Made by a program: the position numbers and the translations under genes. A stretch of DNA of 64,000 nt from Stenomitos frigidus ULC18 (GTDB lineage: Bacteria > Cyanobacteriota > Cyanobacteriia > Leptolyngbyales > Leptolyngbyaceae), in NCBI RefSeq assembly GCF_003003795.1, contig NZ_PVWK01000098.1, positions 62,001 through 126,000 of the forward strand. Reading direction: 5' to 3'. Below the pieces are notes generated by a model, which was not told the DNA's origin, did not search any database, and was given only the letters and a program-made list of their open reading frames with translations. Shown one piece after another: positions 2,811-9,530 of the stretch; within the stretch, counting starts at the first letter, position 1, and every line of letters begins with the position of its first letter.

Positions 2811-3500
2811 ATGCCAGGTCAACTCTTGCTAGTGGATGATGAACCAGGCTTGCGTGAAGCCGTGCAGGCCTATCTGGAAGACAGCGGTTTTACCGTTGCC
2901 GTTGCCAGCAATGCTAACGAAGGTTTGGCACTGGCACGGCAAACGCTACCCGATTTGGTCATCACCGACATTATGATGCCGCAGGTGGATGGCTATCAGT
3001 TTCTCAAACAGTTGCGCGAAGACCCTCAATTTAAGACTTTGCCAGTGGTGTTTTTGACCGCTCGAGGTATGACCTCCGATCGCATCCAGGGCTATAACGC
3101 GGGTGCTGATGCTTATCTATCGAAACCGTTTGACCCTGATGAACTGGTGGCGATCGTCACTAACCTGTTGCAAAAGCGGGATGTGGTTCGTGCGGCTGGA
3201 GAAGACGAACCGCGCAACATTGACGATGTGATTCGAGAGATCGAAGAAATCAAGCGGCTGTTGACCAAAGGAGGCTCGATCCCTCAGTTACCCAACACGA
3301 TCCAAATTGACTTTACGCCTAGAGAGCAGAGCGTCCTTAACCTGGTTGTCGATGGTTTGATGAACAAAGAAATTGCCCGTCGCCTCGAAACCAGCGTCCG
3401 CAATGTCGAAAAGTACGTCAGCCGACTCTTTAGCAAGACAGGCACCAGCAGCCGCACAGAGTTAGTACGCTATGCGTTGGAACATGGATTGATGAAGTAG
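2811..3500 (+). CDS. rre1: NarL-family response regulator, Rre1/Ycf29 type
   Basis: Two-component transcription factor of 229 residues. Receiver domain about 1-125: acidic pair DD at 9-10, phosphoacceptor Asp53 (ITDIMMPQ), Thr83, Lys105 (YLSKPF). LuxR-type helix-turn-helix about 165-229 (FTPREQSVLNLVVDGLMNKE...). The receiver sequence (MMPQVDGYQFLKQLRE, TARGMTSDRIQGYNAGADAYL) closely resembles Ycf29 of algal plastids and cyanobacterial Rre1, which is linked to stress and heat responses in model strains. The ATG at 2811 fits the receiver start. The next kinase gene (4492) is a possible but unproven partner; Rre1 in model strains works with Hik34 or Hik2-like kinases elsewhere. Confidence 0.88.
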   Translation: MPGQLLLVDDEPGLREAVQAYLEDSGFTVAVASNANEGLALARQTLPDLVITDIMMPQVDGYQFLKQLREDPQFKTLPVVFLTARGMTSDRIQGYNAGADAYLSKPFDPDELVAIVTNLLQKRDVVRAAGEDEPRNIDDVIREIEEIKRLLTKGGSIPQLPNTIQIDFTPREQSVLNLVVDGLMNKEIARRLETSVRNVEKYVSRLFSKTGTSSRTELVRYALEHGLMK

Positions 3501-3542
3501 AAGGTAGGAGGCAGGAGGCAGGAGTCCGAATCAACTCAACAC

Positions 3543-4229
3543 TCAACACTCCTTATCCCTCACCTCTCGTTCCGCCCGTGCCAGTACGATTAACCCCTGT
3601 ACCCGAATTCCATTGCGACGGAGGGTTTGGGCAGCAGAGCGAGCGGTTGCGCCAGTCGTGTAGATATCATCCAGCAAGAGGACAGAGTTAGTCGGATGAC
3701 GCTTGCGGAAGGCGTCGCCAAGGCTGAAGGCATCTGCCAGGTTTTGTTCACGATCGCCCGCCGAGAGCTGAAACTGGGCGGTAGTTTCTCGCGATCGACT
3801 CAGCCCTTGTTTTTGTAGCGGCAGCCGTGTTTGCTCACAGAAATGCTCTGCTAACAGATCTGCCTGGTTGAAGCCTCGTTGCTGTTGCTTTGTGGGATGC
3901 ATCGGAATGGGGACGACAGTGAGCGATGTTGTTGGTGTCGCACTGAACCAGGCAAGCGCCAGCCAGTGAGCAAGGGGACGCGCCAGGTGGGGTTTATTTT
4001 CGTATTTGAAGGCGGCGATCGTCTGTCGTAACGCACCGTTGTAACGCCCCCAAGCAAAGATAGGCAGTTGTTCCTGCTGGCACCAGTTAGGGCTGGGAAA
4101 TTGGCACCGTTGCACCTGACGCTGACAATCCTGGCAGAAGGTAGCAGTTGCTACCCGTTGGCAAAGCGGACATTGAGCCTGTAGCAATAAGTCAAGCAGT
4201 CCACCGAGTTGCCTGCTAAAGCCGCTCAT
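3543..4229 (-). CDS. comF: ComF family amidophosphoribosyltransferase-like protein
   Basis: ComF/ComFC-type protein of 228 residues. Four cysteines near the N-terminus (CPLC at 20-23, CQDC at 32-35) form the zinc-ribbon of the family. The C-terminal half is a type I phosphoribosyltransferase domain with the PRPP-binding loop VLLLDDIYTTGAT. In naturally transformable bacteria ComF acts in DNA uptake or recombination of single-stranded DNA. A comEC gene also lies in this window (16114), though 12 kb away. It is convergent with rre1, with only 42 bp between the stops, and divergent from the histidine kinase at 4492. Confidence 0.92.
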   Translation of the reverse strand: MSGFSRQLGGLLDLLLQAQCPLCQRVATATFCQDCQRQVQRCQFPSPNWCQQEQLPIFAWGRYNGALRQTIAAFKYENKPHLARPLAHWLALAWFSATPTTSLTVVPIPMHPTKQQQRGFNQADLLAEHFCEQTRLPLQKQGLSRSRETTAQFQLSAGDREQNLADAFSLGDAFRKRHPTNSVLLLDDIYTTGATARSAAQTLRRNGIRVQGLIVLARAEREVRDKEC

Positions 4230-4400
4230 ATGCAGAGAACCTTAAAGAGATAAAAATTGTGCAAGGCATCAATGGCCGATGAGCAAAAGGTTACAGCTAC
4301 ACTGCCTTACCTTACAAAACAGAAGTGAATGACGTTCAACGAAACTAGAGAAGATAAAACTAAAGAATCAGTCAATCTCTTTCTGGGTAAGCGTTAAACT

Positions 4401-4426
4401 CTAGCGGTATCAATTTATGCCGCTAG
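4401..4426. promoter_or_regulatory. Inverted repeat in comF/kinase intergenic region
   Basis: CTAGCGG (4401-4407) and CCGCTAG (4420-4426) form a perfect 7-bp inverted repeat, extendable by TAT/ATG with one G-T wobble to a 10-bp stem around a 6-nt loop. It lies about 65 bp before the kinase start, in the shared upstream region of comF and the kinase. There is no T-run, so an operator or leader hairpin is more likely than a terminator. A second small dyad (ACATG-A-CATGT, 4429-4439) follows directly. Confidence 0.5.
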
Positions 4427-4491
4427 ATACATGACATGTCTGGCTTAAGTATGCCCAACTAGTAATACTGCTACACCTAAAGGAGTAAGCA

Positions 4492-6810
4492 TTGCTGCCT
4501 CGTTGGTTTAACTCTCACGCCTCACACTCACTCGATTGGTCGATCACCCAGCCGATGATCAAACCTGAACGTTCTCCACTTGTACGGTATGGAGTGGCGC
4601 TGCTGTCGATAGTATTGGCGCTGTTGTTAATGCTGTTACTAGAACGTTGGGTGCCAATGCGGAGTTCGCCGTTTCTGTTTTTTTTTGCTGCGGTGATGGT
4701 GAGTGCGTGGTATGGCGGTTTTGGTGCGGGGATCTGCGCGACGACGATCGCAGCCGTGGTCTCAGTTTATTTTTTCCTACCGCCAGTCTATTCATTCGCA
4801 CTGCCAACTACATCTGAACTACTCAGAATCGGCTTATTTATCGTGCTCGCGCTGATGATTACGGTTCTTAGTGCAACGCGGCGGCAATTGTTGAAGGCCT
4901 TACAACATGAGCGCGACTTGATTGCAGCGATCGTCGGTACTGCAGGCAGCCTGATTATAGTGCTCGATCGTTGGGGTAAAATCGTTCAATTTAATCGGGC
5001 GTGTGAGCAACTGACGGGCTATACGTTTACAGATGTGCGTGGCAAATCTCCCTGGGATTTATTCTTGCTGCCAGAAGACGTAGAGCGAGTGCAGCAAATC
5101 TTTCAAGCGCTGTGTCTTAGCGCTGCACCCAACGCCTACGAGAATACCTGGATCGCCAAAGATGGCAGTCGCCATTTGATTGCCTGGTCAAACAACGTGT
5201 TATTGGATGAGCGGGGAGCCGTTTTTTTTGTAATTGGGACTGGCATTGACATTACCGAGCGCAAGCAAGCAGAGCAAACGCTGCAAGAAACGAATCAAGC
5301 CCTTCAAGCCTTGGTTCAAGCCTCGCCCGTTGCCATTACGGTGCTCGATCGACATGGGATTGTCAAGCGCTGGAACCCATCCGCAGAGCGCATTTTTGGC
5401 TGGCAAGCGGCAGAGGCAATCGGTCGTGTGATGCCAACGGTGCCTGAGGATAAGCAGGAGGAATTTCTAGAGAAGGTTGCGGCTACGCTCAACGGTGATT
5501 TGCTGGATGGGGTGGAAACCTATCGCCAGCGTAAGGATGGTTCCTTAATCTATGTGGGTCTGTGGACAGCTGTGCTGCGCGGCTCGACGGCGGCAGAGGA
5601 TGGCCTGATATCGATCGCGGTAGACCTGAGCGAACGTAAGGAAGCAGAAACGGCCGTGCGGTTAAGCCAGGAGCGTTTAACCAGCTTTGTTGAAGCGAAC
5701 GTCGTTGGTATTTTGTTTGGTGACATCAGCGGTGGTATTAATGAAGCCAATGATGAGTTTCTCCGCATCGTTGGCTACTCGCGGGAAGACCTTGAGGCAG
5801 GGGCGCTGCGCTGGACTCACATCACGCCCCCAGAATACCTGCCGATCGATGAAAAAGCCATCCGTGAAGCGTTGCTAGAAGGAGGCTGTACGCCCTACGA
5901 GAAAGAATATATCCGCAAGGATGACAGTCGGATTCCCGTTCTCATTGGCTTTGGCTTGCTGGGCGAAGAACGGCAGCAAACAGTTGCCTTCATTCTCGAT
6001 TTGACTGAACGCAAACGCCTGGAGCAGGCGCTGCGTGCCCAGGCTGAGCAGCTGACTCAAGCAAATCGCATGAAAGATGAGTTTCTGGCTGTCCTCTCGC
6101 ACGAGTTGCGCACACCGCTGAACTCGATTTTGGGCTGGGCACGGTTGCTACGAACGCGCCAGTTTGATGCAGAAATAACTGAACGTGCTTTAGAGACGAT
6201 CGAACGCAACGCACGGCTACAAAATCAACTAGTCGATGACATTCTAGACATTTCCAAAATTACGCAGGGGAAATTGTGTTTACATCCCCGTCCGGTTGAT
6301 TTGGTGAGTGTCATTGCCGCTGCGATCGATGCCATGCGTCCTGCTGCTGCGGCAAAATCAATGATGGTCAAGTTAAACAGCGCTCTGACACCCGAAATGT
6401 CAGAGCCATACTTCGTTCTAGGCGATCCCGATCGCTTACAGCAAGTAGTGTGGAACCTGCTTTCTAACGCCATCAAATTTACACCCGAGGGCGGGCAAGT
6501 TGACGTGCAGTTGTCGATCGCCCAACATCTAACGTCCCATGCCCAAATTACAGTCGCCGATACGGGCAATGGCATTGGCGCCGATTTTCTCCCCTTTGTC
6601 TTCGATCGCTTTCGGCAGGCAGATTCATCATCAACTCGCGCCGAAGGTGGACTAGGGCTTGGCCTGGCGATCGTGCGTCAATTGGTGGAACTACATGGCG
6701 GCATGGTTCAGGTTGAAAGTCCTGGCATTGGACAGGGCACAACTTTTACAATCACCTTGCCTATGATGAGCGAGAGCCAGAGAGTCGAGTGGCTAAAGGC
6801 TAAAGGCTAA
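4492..6810 (+). CDS. Membrane PAS-PAS-PAS sensor histidine kinase
   Basis: Sensor kinase of 772 residues. A KdpD-like four-helix membrane region (DUF4118 type, about 25-125) is followed by three PAS domains (about 135-255, 262-385, 385-505), a HisKA dimerisation domain with H-box SHELRTPLNSILGWARLL (His about 536) and a HATPase_c domain (N box WNLLSNAIKFTPEGG, G box VADTGNGIG, GLGLGLAIVRQLVELHGG). No receiver is attached, so phosphotransfer must go to a separate regulator. The start is a TTG preceded at good spacing by AAAGGAG (4479-4485); the first ATG in frame would trim about 20 residues. The last residues (LKAKG) and the stop codon are made by a heptamer repeat array (see 6791). Confidence 0.95.
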   Translation: MLPRWFNSHASHSLDWSITQPMIKPERSPLVRYGVALLSIVLALLLMLLLERWVPMRSSPFLFFFAAVMVSAWYGGFGAGICATTIAAVVSVYFFLPPVYSFALPTTSELLRIGLFIVLALMITVLSATRRQLLKALQHERDLIAAIVGTAGSLIIVLDRWGKIVQFNRACEQLTGYTFTDVRGKSPWDLFLLPEDVERVQQIFQALCLSAAPNAYENTWIAKDGSRHLIAWSNNVLLDERGAVFFVIGTGIDITERKQAEQTLQETNQALQALVQASPVAITVLDRHGIVKRWNPSAERIFGWQAAEAIGRVMPTVPEDKQEEFLEKVAATLNGDLLDGVETYRQRKDGSLIYVGLWTAVLRGSTAAEDGLISIAVDLSERKEAETAVRLSQERLTSFVEANVVGILFGDISGGINEANDEFLRIVGYSREDLEAGALRWTHITPPEYLPIDEKAIREALLEGGCTPYEKEYIRKDDSRIPVLIGFGLLGEERQQTVAFILDLTERKRLEQALRAQAEQLTQANRMKDEFLAVLSHELRTPLNSILGWARLLRTRQFDAEITERALETIERNARLQNQLVDDILDISKITQGKLCLHPRPVDLVSVIAAAIDAMRPAAAAKSMMVKLNSALTPEMSEPYFVLGDPDRLQQVVWNLLSNAIKFTPEGGQVDVQLSIAQHLTSHAQITVADTGNGIGADFLPFVFDRFRQADSSSTRAEGGLGLGLAIVRQLVELHGGMVQVESPGIGQGTTFTITLPMMSESQRVEWLKAKG

Positions 6811-7025: not shown

Positions 7026-9530
7026 GTGGCTAATCTTTACTGGCTCGATCAGATTCAACCACACCATCGTGCTTTGGTCGGGAACAAAGCGTTTTACCTG
7101 AGCCAGTTGCTGCAAAAAGAGTTCCCTGTCGTACCAGGGTTTGTGGTCTCCGCTCGCATGTTGCGCCAGTTTTTAGAAGCGATCGATTGGTCAGAGCCCC
7201 TTTTTGCTGATCTACCTCACTCATCACTACGCTTAGATATCGAGAACCCACGGCAGCTACAGGCGATCGCTCAACAGTTGCGCCAGGCGATTGAAGTGCC
7301 AGCCTTGCCAGTTGCCTGGCTGACAGAGCTTAACGCTGCCATACAACAACTACAGACGCCAGTTGTCGTCTTACGCCCGTCTCTGTTTGTCAAAGCAACT
7401 GCTAGCAAGGCCCCTAAAGTAAAGGCGATCGCAGACGGTAGGAGTTCGACGTTATTCGATATACAAATCTGCCATGCGACGGAAGCCGAGCTAGCTCAAG
7501 GGCTGAAGTGTTTATGGGCACAGCTTTTTCGGGCAAAGAGCCTGTTTTACTGGCAGCGCCTGGGCATCCCTTTGCACCAGGTTAAACTCGCGGTGCTGGT
7601 GCAGCCCCTCCGTTCCGCGATCGCATCGGGTAGCGTCCAGCGGCGGGAGCAGACGTTTCAGGTAGAGTCAACCACCGGGCTGGGCATGGCAATCGCGTGG
7701 GGAGAAGTCTCGCCCGATGTGTATGAAGCTGAGGCGACCAGTGGCATTGTGCGGACGCAGCAGCTGGGGAAACGGGCGATCGTCTATCAGGCTGCAGATG
7801 GTAGCGCTGTGCAACCGAAACCTGATGAGCTAACGGCGTCAATGGTTGAAACTGCCTTAGCGCCTCACTTAACGCCACTAGCATCCCATCCCCATGCTCT
7901 TCCCTTACTACAAGCCTACTTACCAGATGACATCCAGCGATCGCGCTTCTCCCTAACGGATGCGCAAGTAAGTACGCTGGTACAGCTTGTTCAAGGTGTT
8001 GTCGCCAGCTTTAGCAACGTGTCGGCTTTAGAATGGACACTCACCACAGAGAAGGATGGCGAATCGGCCCAGTTTTGCCTGACTCAAGTCATCACACTTG
8101 CATCCCAGGCGCGATCGCAGACGCTTCATCATGCGCTACAGCCGTCTAGCCCGACAGTAGTAACCCTGAATCGCCTGTTGTGCAGTCCTGGGGAGGCAGT
8201 GACGTTAGAACAGACACTGTCAACGAAGGAGTCGCAAGCGCTATTAGTAAGCGGGCTGGCAGCAGGACAGGGACGCTCGATCGCCAATGCCAGCGTTATT
8301 TCACCTCTACATAACACGCTGGACACCATTCCTCTGGGGACGATTTTGGTGGCTGAGATGCTACCGCCAGACTGGTTGATGCTGATTAAGCAAGCCGCTG
8401 GCATCGTTCTGGAGCAGGGCAGCATGACCTCACACAGCGCCATCATTGCGAGAGAGCTGGGTGTTCCGGCTGTCGTTGCAGCCCCCAATGCCACTCAGCA
8501 GATTCAAACCGGCGAGCTCATTATGATTGATGGCGATCGAGGCCATGTCTATCGGCTGGGAGACATGACTGATCCAGTACATCACCTACCCGACGCTCCA
8601 CCCGCCAACGTGATGGCTCCGGGCGATCGCCCGCTGCTGGGTACAAGGCTCATGGTGAATCTGAGTCAGCCCGATCAGCTTGAGTCTATAGCCGCTCTGC
8701 CGATTGATGGCATTGGGTTGCTGCGCGGCGAATTGATGGCTCTCTCAGTGTTAGAGCATCAGCATCCCTTGCAGTGGTTACAGAGTGGGCGCAGTGCTGA
8801 CCTGGTTGAACGTCTGGCGACTCGCATCAGCCAGTTTGCAGCGGCTTTGGCACCGCGCCCCGTGTTCTACCGTTCGCTTAATTTGCGATCGCACGAATCG
8901 AGAAGCCTGCCGGGTGGTGAAGCGGTTGCCGCTGAGATCAACCCCACACTGGGTCTACATGGCACGTTTAGCTACTGCCTCGACCCAGCCCTGTTTGATC
9001 TGGAACTAGCGGCACTGGCACAGGTGCAAGCTGCTTACTCAAACATTCACCTCTTATTGCCCTTTGTGCGCACGGTAGAGGAGTTTTCCTTCTGCCAGGA
9101 GCGGGTACATAAGGCTGGGCTCACGCGCAACCCAGAGTTTCAGCTATGGATTATGGCAGAAGTACCCTCTGTCTTGTTTCTGCTGCCGGACTATGTGCGT
9201 GCGGGCGTTCAGGGCATTGCGATCGGCACCAATGACTTGACTCAGTTGCTGTTTGGTGCCGATCGCGATCACAGTGCTATGGCCTCTGCGTTTGATGCCA
9301 GACATCCAGCCGTCAGAGCCGCGATCGCCCAACTGATCCAACAAGCGAAGCAAGCAGGTATACCCTGTTCGATTTGTGGGCAAGCCCCATCGCATGATCC
9401 TGAACTCGTTGAAATGCTCGTCCGTTGGGGGATTGCTTCAATCTCAGTTGACCCAGGAGCCGTAGAGACGACCTACGGGGCGATCGCCCGTGCCGAAGCG
9501 CTGCTGCTCGAGACGGCTCACAAGCAATAG
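7026..9530 (+). CDS. PEP synthase-like protein with divergent ATP-binding domain
   Basis: 834 residues with the domain order of phosphoenolpyruvate synthase/pyruvate phosphate dikinase. The N-terminal nucleotide domain begins GNKAFYLSQLL and PVVPGFVVSA. The swivelling phosphohistidine domain has GSMTSHSAIIARELGVPA (His about 467). The C-terminal PEP/pyruvate barrel ends with GTNDLTQLLFGADRD and the acid-base cysteine in ICGQAPS (about 782). The usual Arg-Ser-Ser...Glu-Asp ATP motif is replaced by VVLRPSLFVKATASK with no Glu-Asp pair, so classical PEP synthase activity is doubtful. The start is a GTG at 7026 in a region with no better ATG. It stands alone between heptamer repeats and the ABC ATPase. 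Could be a regulator, a kinase with other donor, or a partial enzyme. Confidence 0.85.
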   Translation: MANLYWLDQIQPHHRALVGNKAFYLSQLLQKEFPVVPGFVVSARMLRQFLEAIDWSEPLFADLPHSSLRLDIENPRQLQAIAQQLRQAIEVPALPVAWLTELNAAIQQLQTPVVVLRPSLFVKATASKAPKVKAIADGRSSTLFDIQICHATEAELAQGLKCLWAQLFRAKSLFYWQRLGIPLHQVKLAVLVQPLRSAIASGSVQRREQTFQVESTTGLGMAIAWGEVSPDVYEAEATSGIVRTQQLGKRAIVYQAADGSAVQPKPDELTASMVETALAPHLTPLASHPHALPLLQAYLPDDIQRSRFSLTDAQVSTLVQLVQGVVASFSNVSALEWTLTTEKDGESAQFCLTQVITLASQARSQTLHHALQPSSPTVVTLNRLLCSPGEAVTLEQTLSTKESQALLVSGLAAGQGRSIANASVISPLHNTLDTIPLGTILVAEMLPPDWLMLIKQAAGIVLEQGSMTSHSAIIARELGVPAVVAAPNATQQIQTGELIMIDGDRGHVYRLGDMTDPVHHLPDAPPANVMAPGDRPLLGTRLMVNLSQPDQLESIAALPIDGIGLLRGELMALSVLEHQHPLQWLQSGRSADLVERLATRISQFAAALAPRPVFYRSLNLRSHESRSLPGGEAVAAEINPTLGLHGTFSYCLDPALFDLELAALAQVQAAYSNIHLLLPFVRTVEEFSFCQERVHKAGLTRNPEFQLWIMAEVPSVLFLLPDYVRAGVQGIAIGTNDLTQLLFGADRDHSAMASAFDARHPAVRAAIAQLIQQAKQAGIPCSICGQAPSHDPELVEMLVRWGIASISVDPGAVETTYGAIARAEALLLETAHKQ

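Follow-up and report, generated by a model that had tools for sequence, protein, structure and literature searches.

The cyanobacterial PpsA-like variant described here groups with the swivel-histidine proteins: PpsA (pyruvate, water dikinase, EC 2.7.9.2), PPDK, Enzyme I (PtsI), rifampin phosphotransferase and HpeHI. In rifampin phosphotransferase and HpeHI, as in the variant, a swivelling His domain shuttles between two substrate domains, and these dikinases show that acceptor and donor domains can be repurposed; they use ATP as donor, however, and have no PEP barrel, and the His domain of rifampin phosphotransferase is C-terminal (PMC4844700, PMC12167813). That C-terminal His domain and the rifampin-binding middle domain are both absent from the variant, whose His domain is central and whose C terminus is a PEP barrel. 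VadK (Rv1127c) of M. tuberculosis is another PPDK-family protein that has lost half of a dikinase and taken on a new role, but the loss is the opposite one: VadK keeps the ATP domain and the His and has no PEP domain, whereas the variant keeps the PEP domain and the His while its ATP site decays (PMC13400623). By analogy, VadK is the nearest precedent in logic, seemingly a mirror image of the variant.

PEP is the phosphate donor of the PTS. With Enzyme I the variant shares swivel and PEP domains and the idea of moving phosphate from PEP to a histidine and on to a protein, but Enzyme I has an HPr-binding N-terminal domain where the variant has an ATP-grasp relict, and HPr is mostly absent. PpsA has the same domain order, the same three folds, the catalytic His, the core PEP residues and the Cys. 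The variant differs from it in the loss of RSSxxxED and of the equivalents of PPDK D321 and R337, in a changed PEP-domain loop and in its sub-cut-off scores. No description of such a clade was found in the literature on cyanobacterial PEP-synthase paralogues and PEP synthase pseudoenzymes, within a coverage that takes in few subscription journals. Two Anabaena genes, alr3147 and alr3397, are both annotated PEP synthase and both stand in a table of FurA-affected genes (PMC4788461).

Layout and modelled fold of the protein

The PpsA-like gene occupies 7026..9530 (plus strand, stop included) of the window, by which we mean the whole 64,000-nucleotide stretch of Stenomitos frigidus ULC18 DNA that was analysed. 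It encodes 834 residues from a GTG start, assigned from the open reading frame list and the start context. This GTG is the sole ATG, GTG or TTG start of the frame downstream of the previous stop, and it matches the start of a relative, L004 (MANLYWLDQIQPH). Pfam matches to PPDK_N (residues 16-355), PEP-utilizers (438-506) and PEP-utilizers_C (541-823) follow the PpsA domain order, which is also that of 15/15 relatives. Among the 15 members examined there was no additional fused domain, save one weak DUF3974 match. The best NCBIfam matches are two PEP synthase equivalogs, both below the curated cut-off (TIGR01418, 415.8 versus 739.75 bits; NF005057, 435.9 versus 598).

All three domains lie on the plus strand. 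The N-terminal ATP-grasp-like domain, whose nucleotide site is degenerate, spans residues 1-361 (7026..8108) and is delimited by PPDK_N and a structural match; the swivelling phosphohistidine domain covers residues 405-512 (8238..8561; Pfam PEP-utilizers). The PEP/pyruvate-binding barrel domain, residues 533-834 (8622..9527), is recognized from Pfam, a structural match and residue counts. An AlphaFold model built from 15 sequences gave a mean pLDDT of 72.8 and a pTM of 0.45, moderate values that leave the relative placement of the domains unreliable. Residues 1-361 of this model matched the ATP-grasp domain of rifampin phosphotransferase (5hv3; Z 32.7, rmsd 2.4, 304 residues), and residues 533-834 matched the PEP domain of S. 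marinus PpsA (9dae; Z 38.3, rmsd 2.1).

A decayed nucleotide site beside an invariant His and PEP core

The alignment comprised 83 loci, the 834-residue protein, E. coli PpsA and 12 canonical PpsA sequences from the same phylum. One locus, L092, turned out to be an outgroup of canonical type and was moved to the canonical set; one truncated row was dropped, leaving 82 family rows to be counted. The original prediction held that the ATP domain had lost its Arg-Ser-Ser...Glu-Asp signature, and around R117 the protein does read VVLRPSLFVKATASK. In the alignment of 14 canonical PpsA and 82 family members, LRPSLFVKATASK at residues 116-128 (7371..7409, plus strand) stands in place of the PpsA motif VRSSATAED, and the full PEP synthase nucleotide-binding motif VRSSATAED...GQQET is absent from the 834-residue protein. 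S128, E133 and D134 (E. coli numbering throughout these counts) are present in 14/14 canonical PpsA aligned, whereas the family retains them in 1/82, 1/82 and 3/82. D318 (4/82) and R336 (3/82) are kept about as rarely; K27 (51/82), R92 (67/82), R127 (63/82), E320 (45/82) and Q334 (57/82) persist in part. The canonical set keeps each of these ten nucleotide residues in 13 or 14 of 14. Across the family R-S-S-x-x-x-E-D has become R-P-S-L, with Pro in 72/82 members, so RPS for RSS is a family signature.

For PPDK we take the equivalent nucleotide residues to be K22, R92, D321, E323, Q335 and R337, an assignment that, like that of the PEP-site residues, draws on general knowledge of the family and on the alignment; K22A and R337A are studied PPDK mutants, according to PDB titles. 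Ligands equivalent to D321 and R337 are absent from nearly every family member. The 834-residue protein retains K21, R86, R117, E336 and Q354, that is, four of the six tabulated ligands plus R117, and its nucleotide site has thus been stripped partly but not wholly. Other members retain anywhere from 0 to 5 of the six. Mapped on a tree of the His and PEP domains, Lys27 (PPDK K22) requires at least 13 changes, and well-supported branches force 6 of these; for R92, R127, E320 and Q334 the number is 8 to 10 each. K22 is essential in rifampin phosphotransferase (PMC4844700). Its presence in only 51 of the 82 members and its repeated changes argue that K22 is not under selection in the family, and such recurrent loss of ligands essential in relatives is what would be expected if the nucleotide site were no longer selected. 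Rifampin phosphotransferase mutants in R117 or T136 retain ATP pyrophosphatase activity, however (PMC4844700); hence, ligand loss is no proof against ATP use.

The other two domains had been predicted to be intact. TSHSAI was found at residues 468-473 (8427..8444, plus strand), with the catalytic His470 corresponding to E. coli H421, and ICGQAPS (9372..9392, plus strand) was found, within SICGQAPS, around Cys784, the equivalent of C751. H421, R427, R511, R578 and R649 are present in 82/82 family members, E680, D704 and C751 in every member long enough to reach them, and N703 in 77/82. Within its barrel the 834-residue protein keeps R567, E569, R616, E712, N736, D737, R747 and C784. The core catalytic residues thus bear out the prediction, but the loop at residues 619-650 (8880..8975, plus strand) does not: His645 replaces E. 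coli R608 and Ser649 replaces R612, both of which are Arg in 16/16 comparison sequences. The segment past R616 (E. coli 583-612) is strongly conserved among the canonical sequences compared, but in the family it has become shorter or has a different sequence. With this Arg pair lost, PEP binding may be altered as well, and PEP turnover is no longer assured.

Selection has nevertheless acted on all three domains. Among 16 close pairs, dN/dS ranged over 0.08-0.55 for the N-domain (0.35 or less in 15/16), 0.08-0.38 for the mobile domain and 0.08-0.23 for the PEP domain. Over longer distances the N-domain diverges faster, with a median pairwise identity of 0.36 versus 0.52 for the PEP domain. It has conserved positions of its own (A170, L173, W176, P118, Y254 and K161), at which the residue is not the one found in most canonical sequences. 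The modelled ATP-grasp fold, taken together with purifying selection, suggests that the N-domain is maintained for some function: it looks repurposed rather than decaying.

Distribution and genomic context of the family

A search of 292 genomes of the cyanobacterial phylum gave matches in 87; 9 of these, which held only canonical or other PpsA types, were dropped, and the variant is present as an open frame in the remaining 78. A scan of 84,980 species with exact peptide patterns returned 14 relatives, every one cyanobacterial. The variant is likely limited to cyanobacteria, although a scan by exact patterns makes this restriction likely without proving it. In a maximum-likelihood tree of the His and PEP domains, made by a quick method and containing several long branches, a branch with support 100 separates the 82 family rows, all cyanobacterial, from the PpsA of E. 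coli, Neisseria and cyanobacteria, from two more PpsA structures (9dae and 8a8e) and from L092. Whether motif loss defines a clade had been posed as a check on the original prediction, and the motif-less sequences do form a monophyletic cyanobacterial clade. We rejected the idea that the family is a recent duplicate of cyanobacterial PpsA, since it branches outside the group formed by the E. coli and cyanobacterial PpsA.

A canonical PpsA had been expected alongside the divergent homologue. The Stenomitos frigidus ULC18 genome indeed encodes both, the canonical protein (813 residues, RSSATAED intact) lying on another contig (G000:C19). Canonical PpsA accompanies the variant in 72/78 genomes and is missing from six (G091, G121, G183, G185, G268 and G289) that are 99-100% complete. 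No other full PpsA or PPDK was found in these six: a PF02896 search covered G121, G183 and G268, and in the others the remaining PPDK_N matches are frames of 966-997 residues that cover profile positions 98-312 only, as does the acyltransferase fusion described below. By these searches the variant stands alone in six genomes, so it must be more than an accessory to PpsA and have an independent function. Variants from PpsA-less genomes rank among the degenerate ones (for example, L056 and L057).

One further PPDK_N protein of the Stenomitos frigidus ULC18 genome is a 1008-residue fusion (L123:2789-5815, minus strand, G000:C129) that joins a PlsY-like glycerol-3-phosphate acyltransferase domain to a PPDK_N half and a mobile phosphohistidine domain, without a PEP barrel; G185, G289, G091 and G121 have frames of similar size that match PPDK_N in the same way. 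In G064 an intein-like insert of about 390 residues splits a canonical PpsA right before the catalytic Cys-His (L125:127-3744, plus strand). Its junctions read GGRT|CFDGET...VVVCN|CHAAI, and its matches to Intein_splicing and LAGLIDADG are weak. Frames of 1212-1249 residues with a broken match point to PpsA split in the same way in G022, G048, G068, G072, G093, G118, G119, G155, G191, G245 and G280.

When the neighbours of the 83 loci were clustered, no conserved co-directional operon partner emerged. The commonest neighbours, named from reading their sequences, are MgtC/SapB-like (25) and ComF-like (22), both on the opposite strand. Upstream of the gene, at 2811-6810 of the window, lie a LuxR-type response regulator, a ComF-like phosphoribosyltransferase and a DUF4118-PAS histidine kinase, in an order shared with L004 and L005. 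The kinase and the LuxR regulator were considered as parts of the system and left out, because among the loci inspected they recur only in these nearest relatives. HPr was found in 4/20 genomes searched, always inside a frame of about 850 residues; it was missing from the other 16 and so is no general partner. The only HPr of the Stenomitos frigidus ULC18 genome belongs to an 853-residue EIIA-HPr-Enzyme I fusion (L126:929-3490, minus strand, G000:C6).

A possible role and its alternatives

The original prediction offered PEP-driven phosphotransfer without the usual ATP half-reaction, or an unusual nucleotide site. The decay of the nucleotide site beside an invariant His and PEP core favours the former; several polyphosphate ligands remain in the 834-residue protein, leaving an altered nucleotide site as the less probable reading. 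We propose, at slightly less than even confidence and from sequence conservation, that the variant is a PEP-dependent phosphohistidine protein whose phosphate goes to an acceptor other than AMP or Pi. The C-terminal barrel would bind PEP, as its conserved residues and fold suggest. C784, with R567, R616, E712, N736 and D737, could then convert PEP and His to pyruvate and a phosphohistidine on H470, with the Cys acting as it does in PpsA, PPDK and Enzyme I, judging by which residues are conserved and by what is known of the chemistry of these relatives. The swivel domain would offer this phosphohistidine to a partner protein, or to the N-domain in its remodelled form, instead of to ATP/AMP, the canonical ATP half-reaction being presumably abolished or strongly diminished. 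Phosphate would probably pass to a partner in place of PEP synthesis. A more specific proposal, which we advance with considerable doubt, is that the clade as a whole constitutes a cyanobacterial PEP:acceptor phosphotransferase outside the PTS, with PEP as donor and the former ATP domain as the acceptor or partner site.

Perhaps the protein transfers nothing? It might be an idle sensor that binds PEP, may hold phosphate on its His and reports the PEP/pyruvate state with no onward transfer. The degenerate N-domain, where conserved residues are mostly structural, the remodelled PEP-domain loop and the lack of an obvious acceptor in the neighbourhood or HPr searches are all consistent with this. 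Binding alone, however, would not call for the His and the proton-transferring Cys together, and every complete member has the two; that they are unchanged favours chemistry, and we regard a sensor as unlikely, if worth keeping in mind. An enzyme still of PEP synthase type, but with a donor site so changed that it binds ATP in another way or uses ADP, GTP, PPi or polyphosphate, would account for the ATP-grasp fold of the model, for the ligands kept in the 834-residue protein (K21, R86, R117, E336 and Q354) and for the six genomes in which the variant stands without canonical PpsA. Members that differ so widely in the ligands they keep, and that have lost K22 many times, are incompatible with a shared donor site, and degenerate members, such as L056 and L057, are found in the PpsA-less genomes. 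We consider such an enzyme rather improbable.

Service to a PTS-type carrier would suit the mobile and PEP domains common to Enzyme I, and an EIIA-HPr-Enzyme I protein does exist in the Stenomitos frigidus ULC18 genome. Against this, Pfam detected no PF05524, the N-terminal domain with which Enzyme I binds HPr, in the 834-residue protein, 16/20 genomes have no HPr, and in the protein examined HPr is fused to an Enzyme I of its own; an Enzyme I-like role is thus very unlikely. Least credible is a copy decaying toward a pseudogene: the N-domain does change faster than the rest, but an open frame in 78/292 genomes and purifying selection in three domains largely refute it.

To our knowledge, phosphotransfer proteins driven by PEP are few outside the PTS. 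Judging from its domains, the variant is likely to be annotated PEP synthase, which would place a false pyruvate-to-PEP step in metabolic models. If it phosphorylates from PEP, it would tie carbon status to a new target in the many cyanobacteria that retain it, some of whose genomes lack any PEP synthase.
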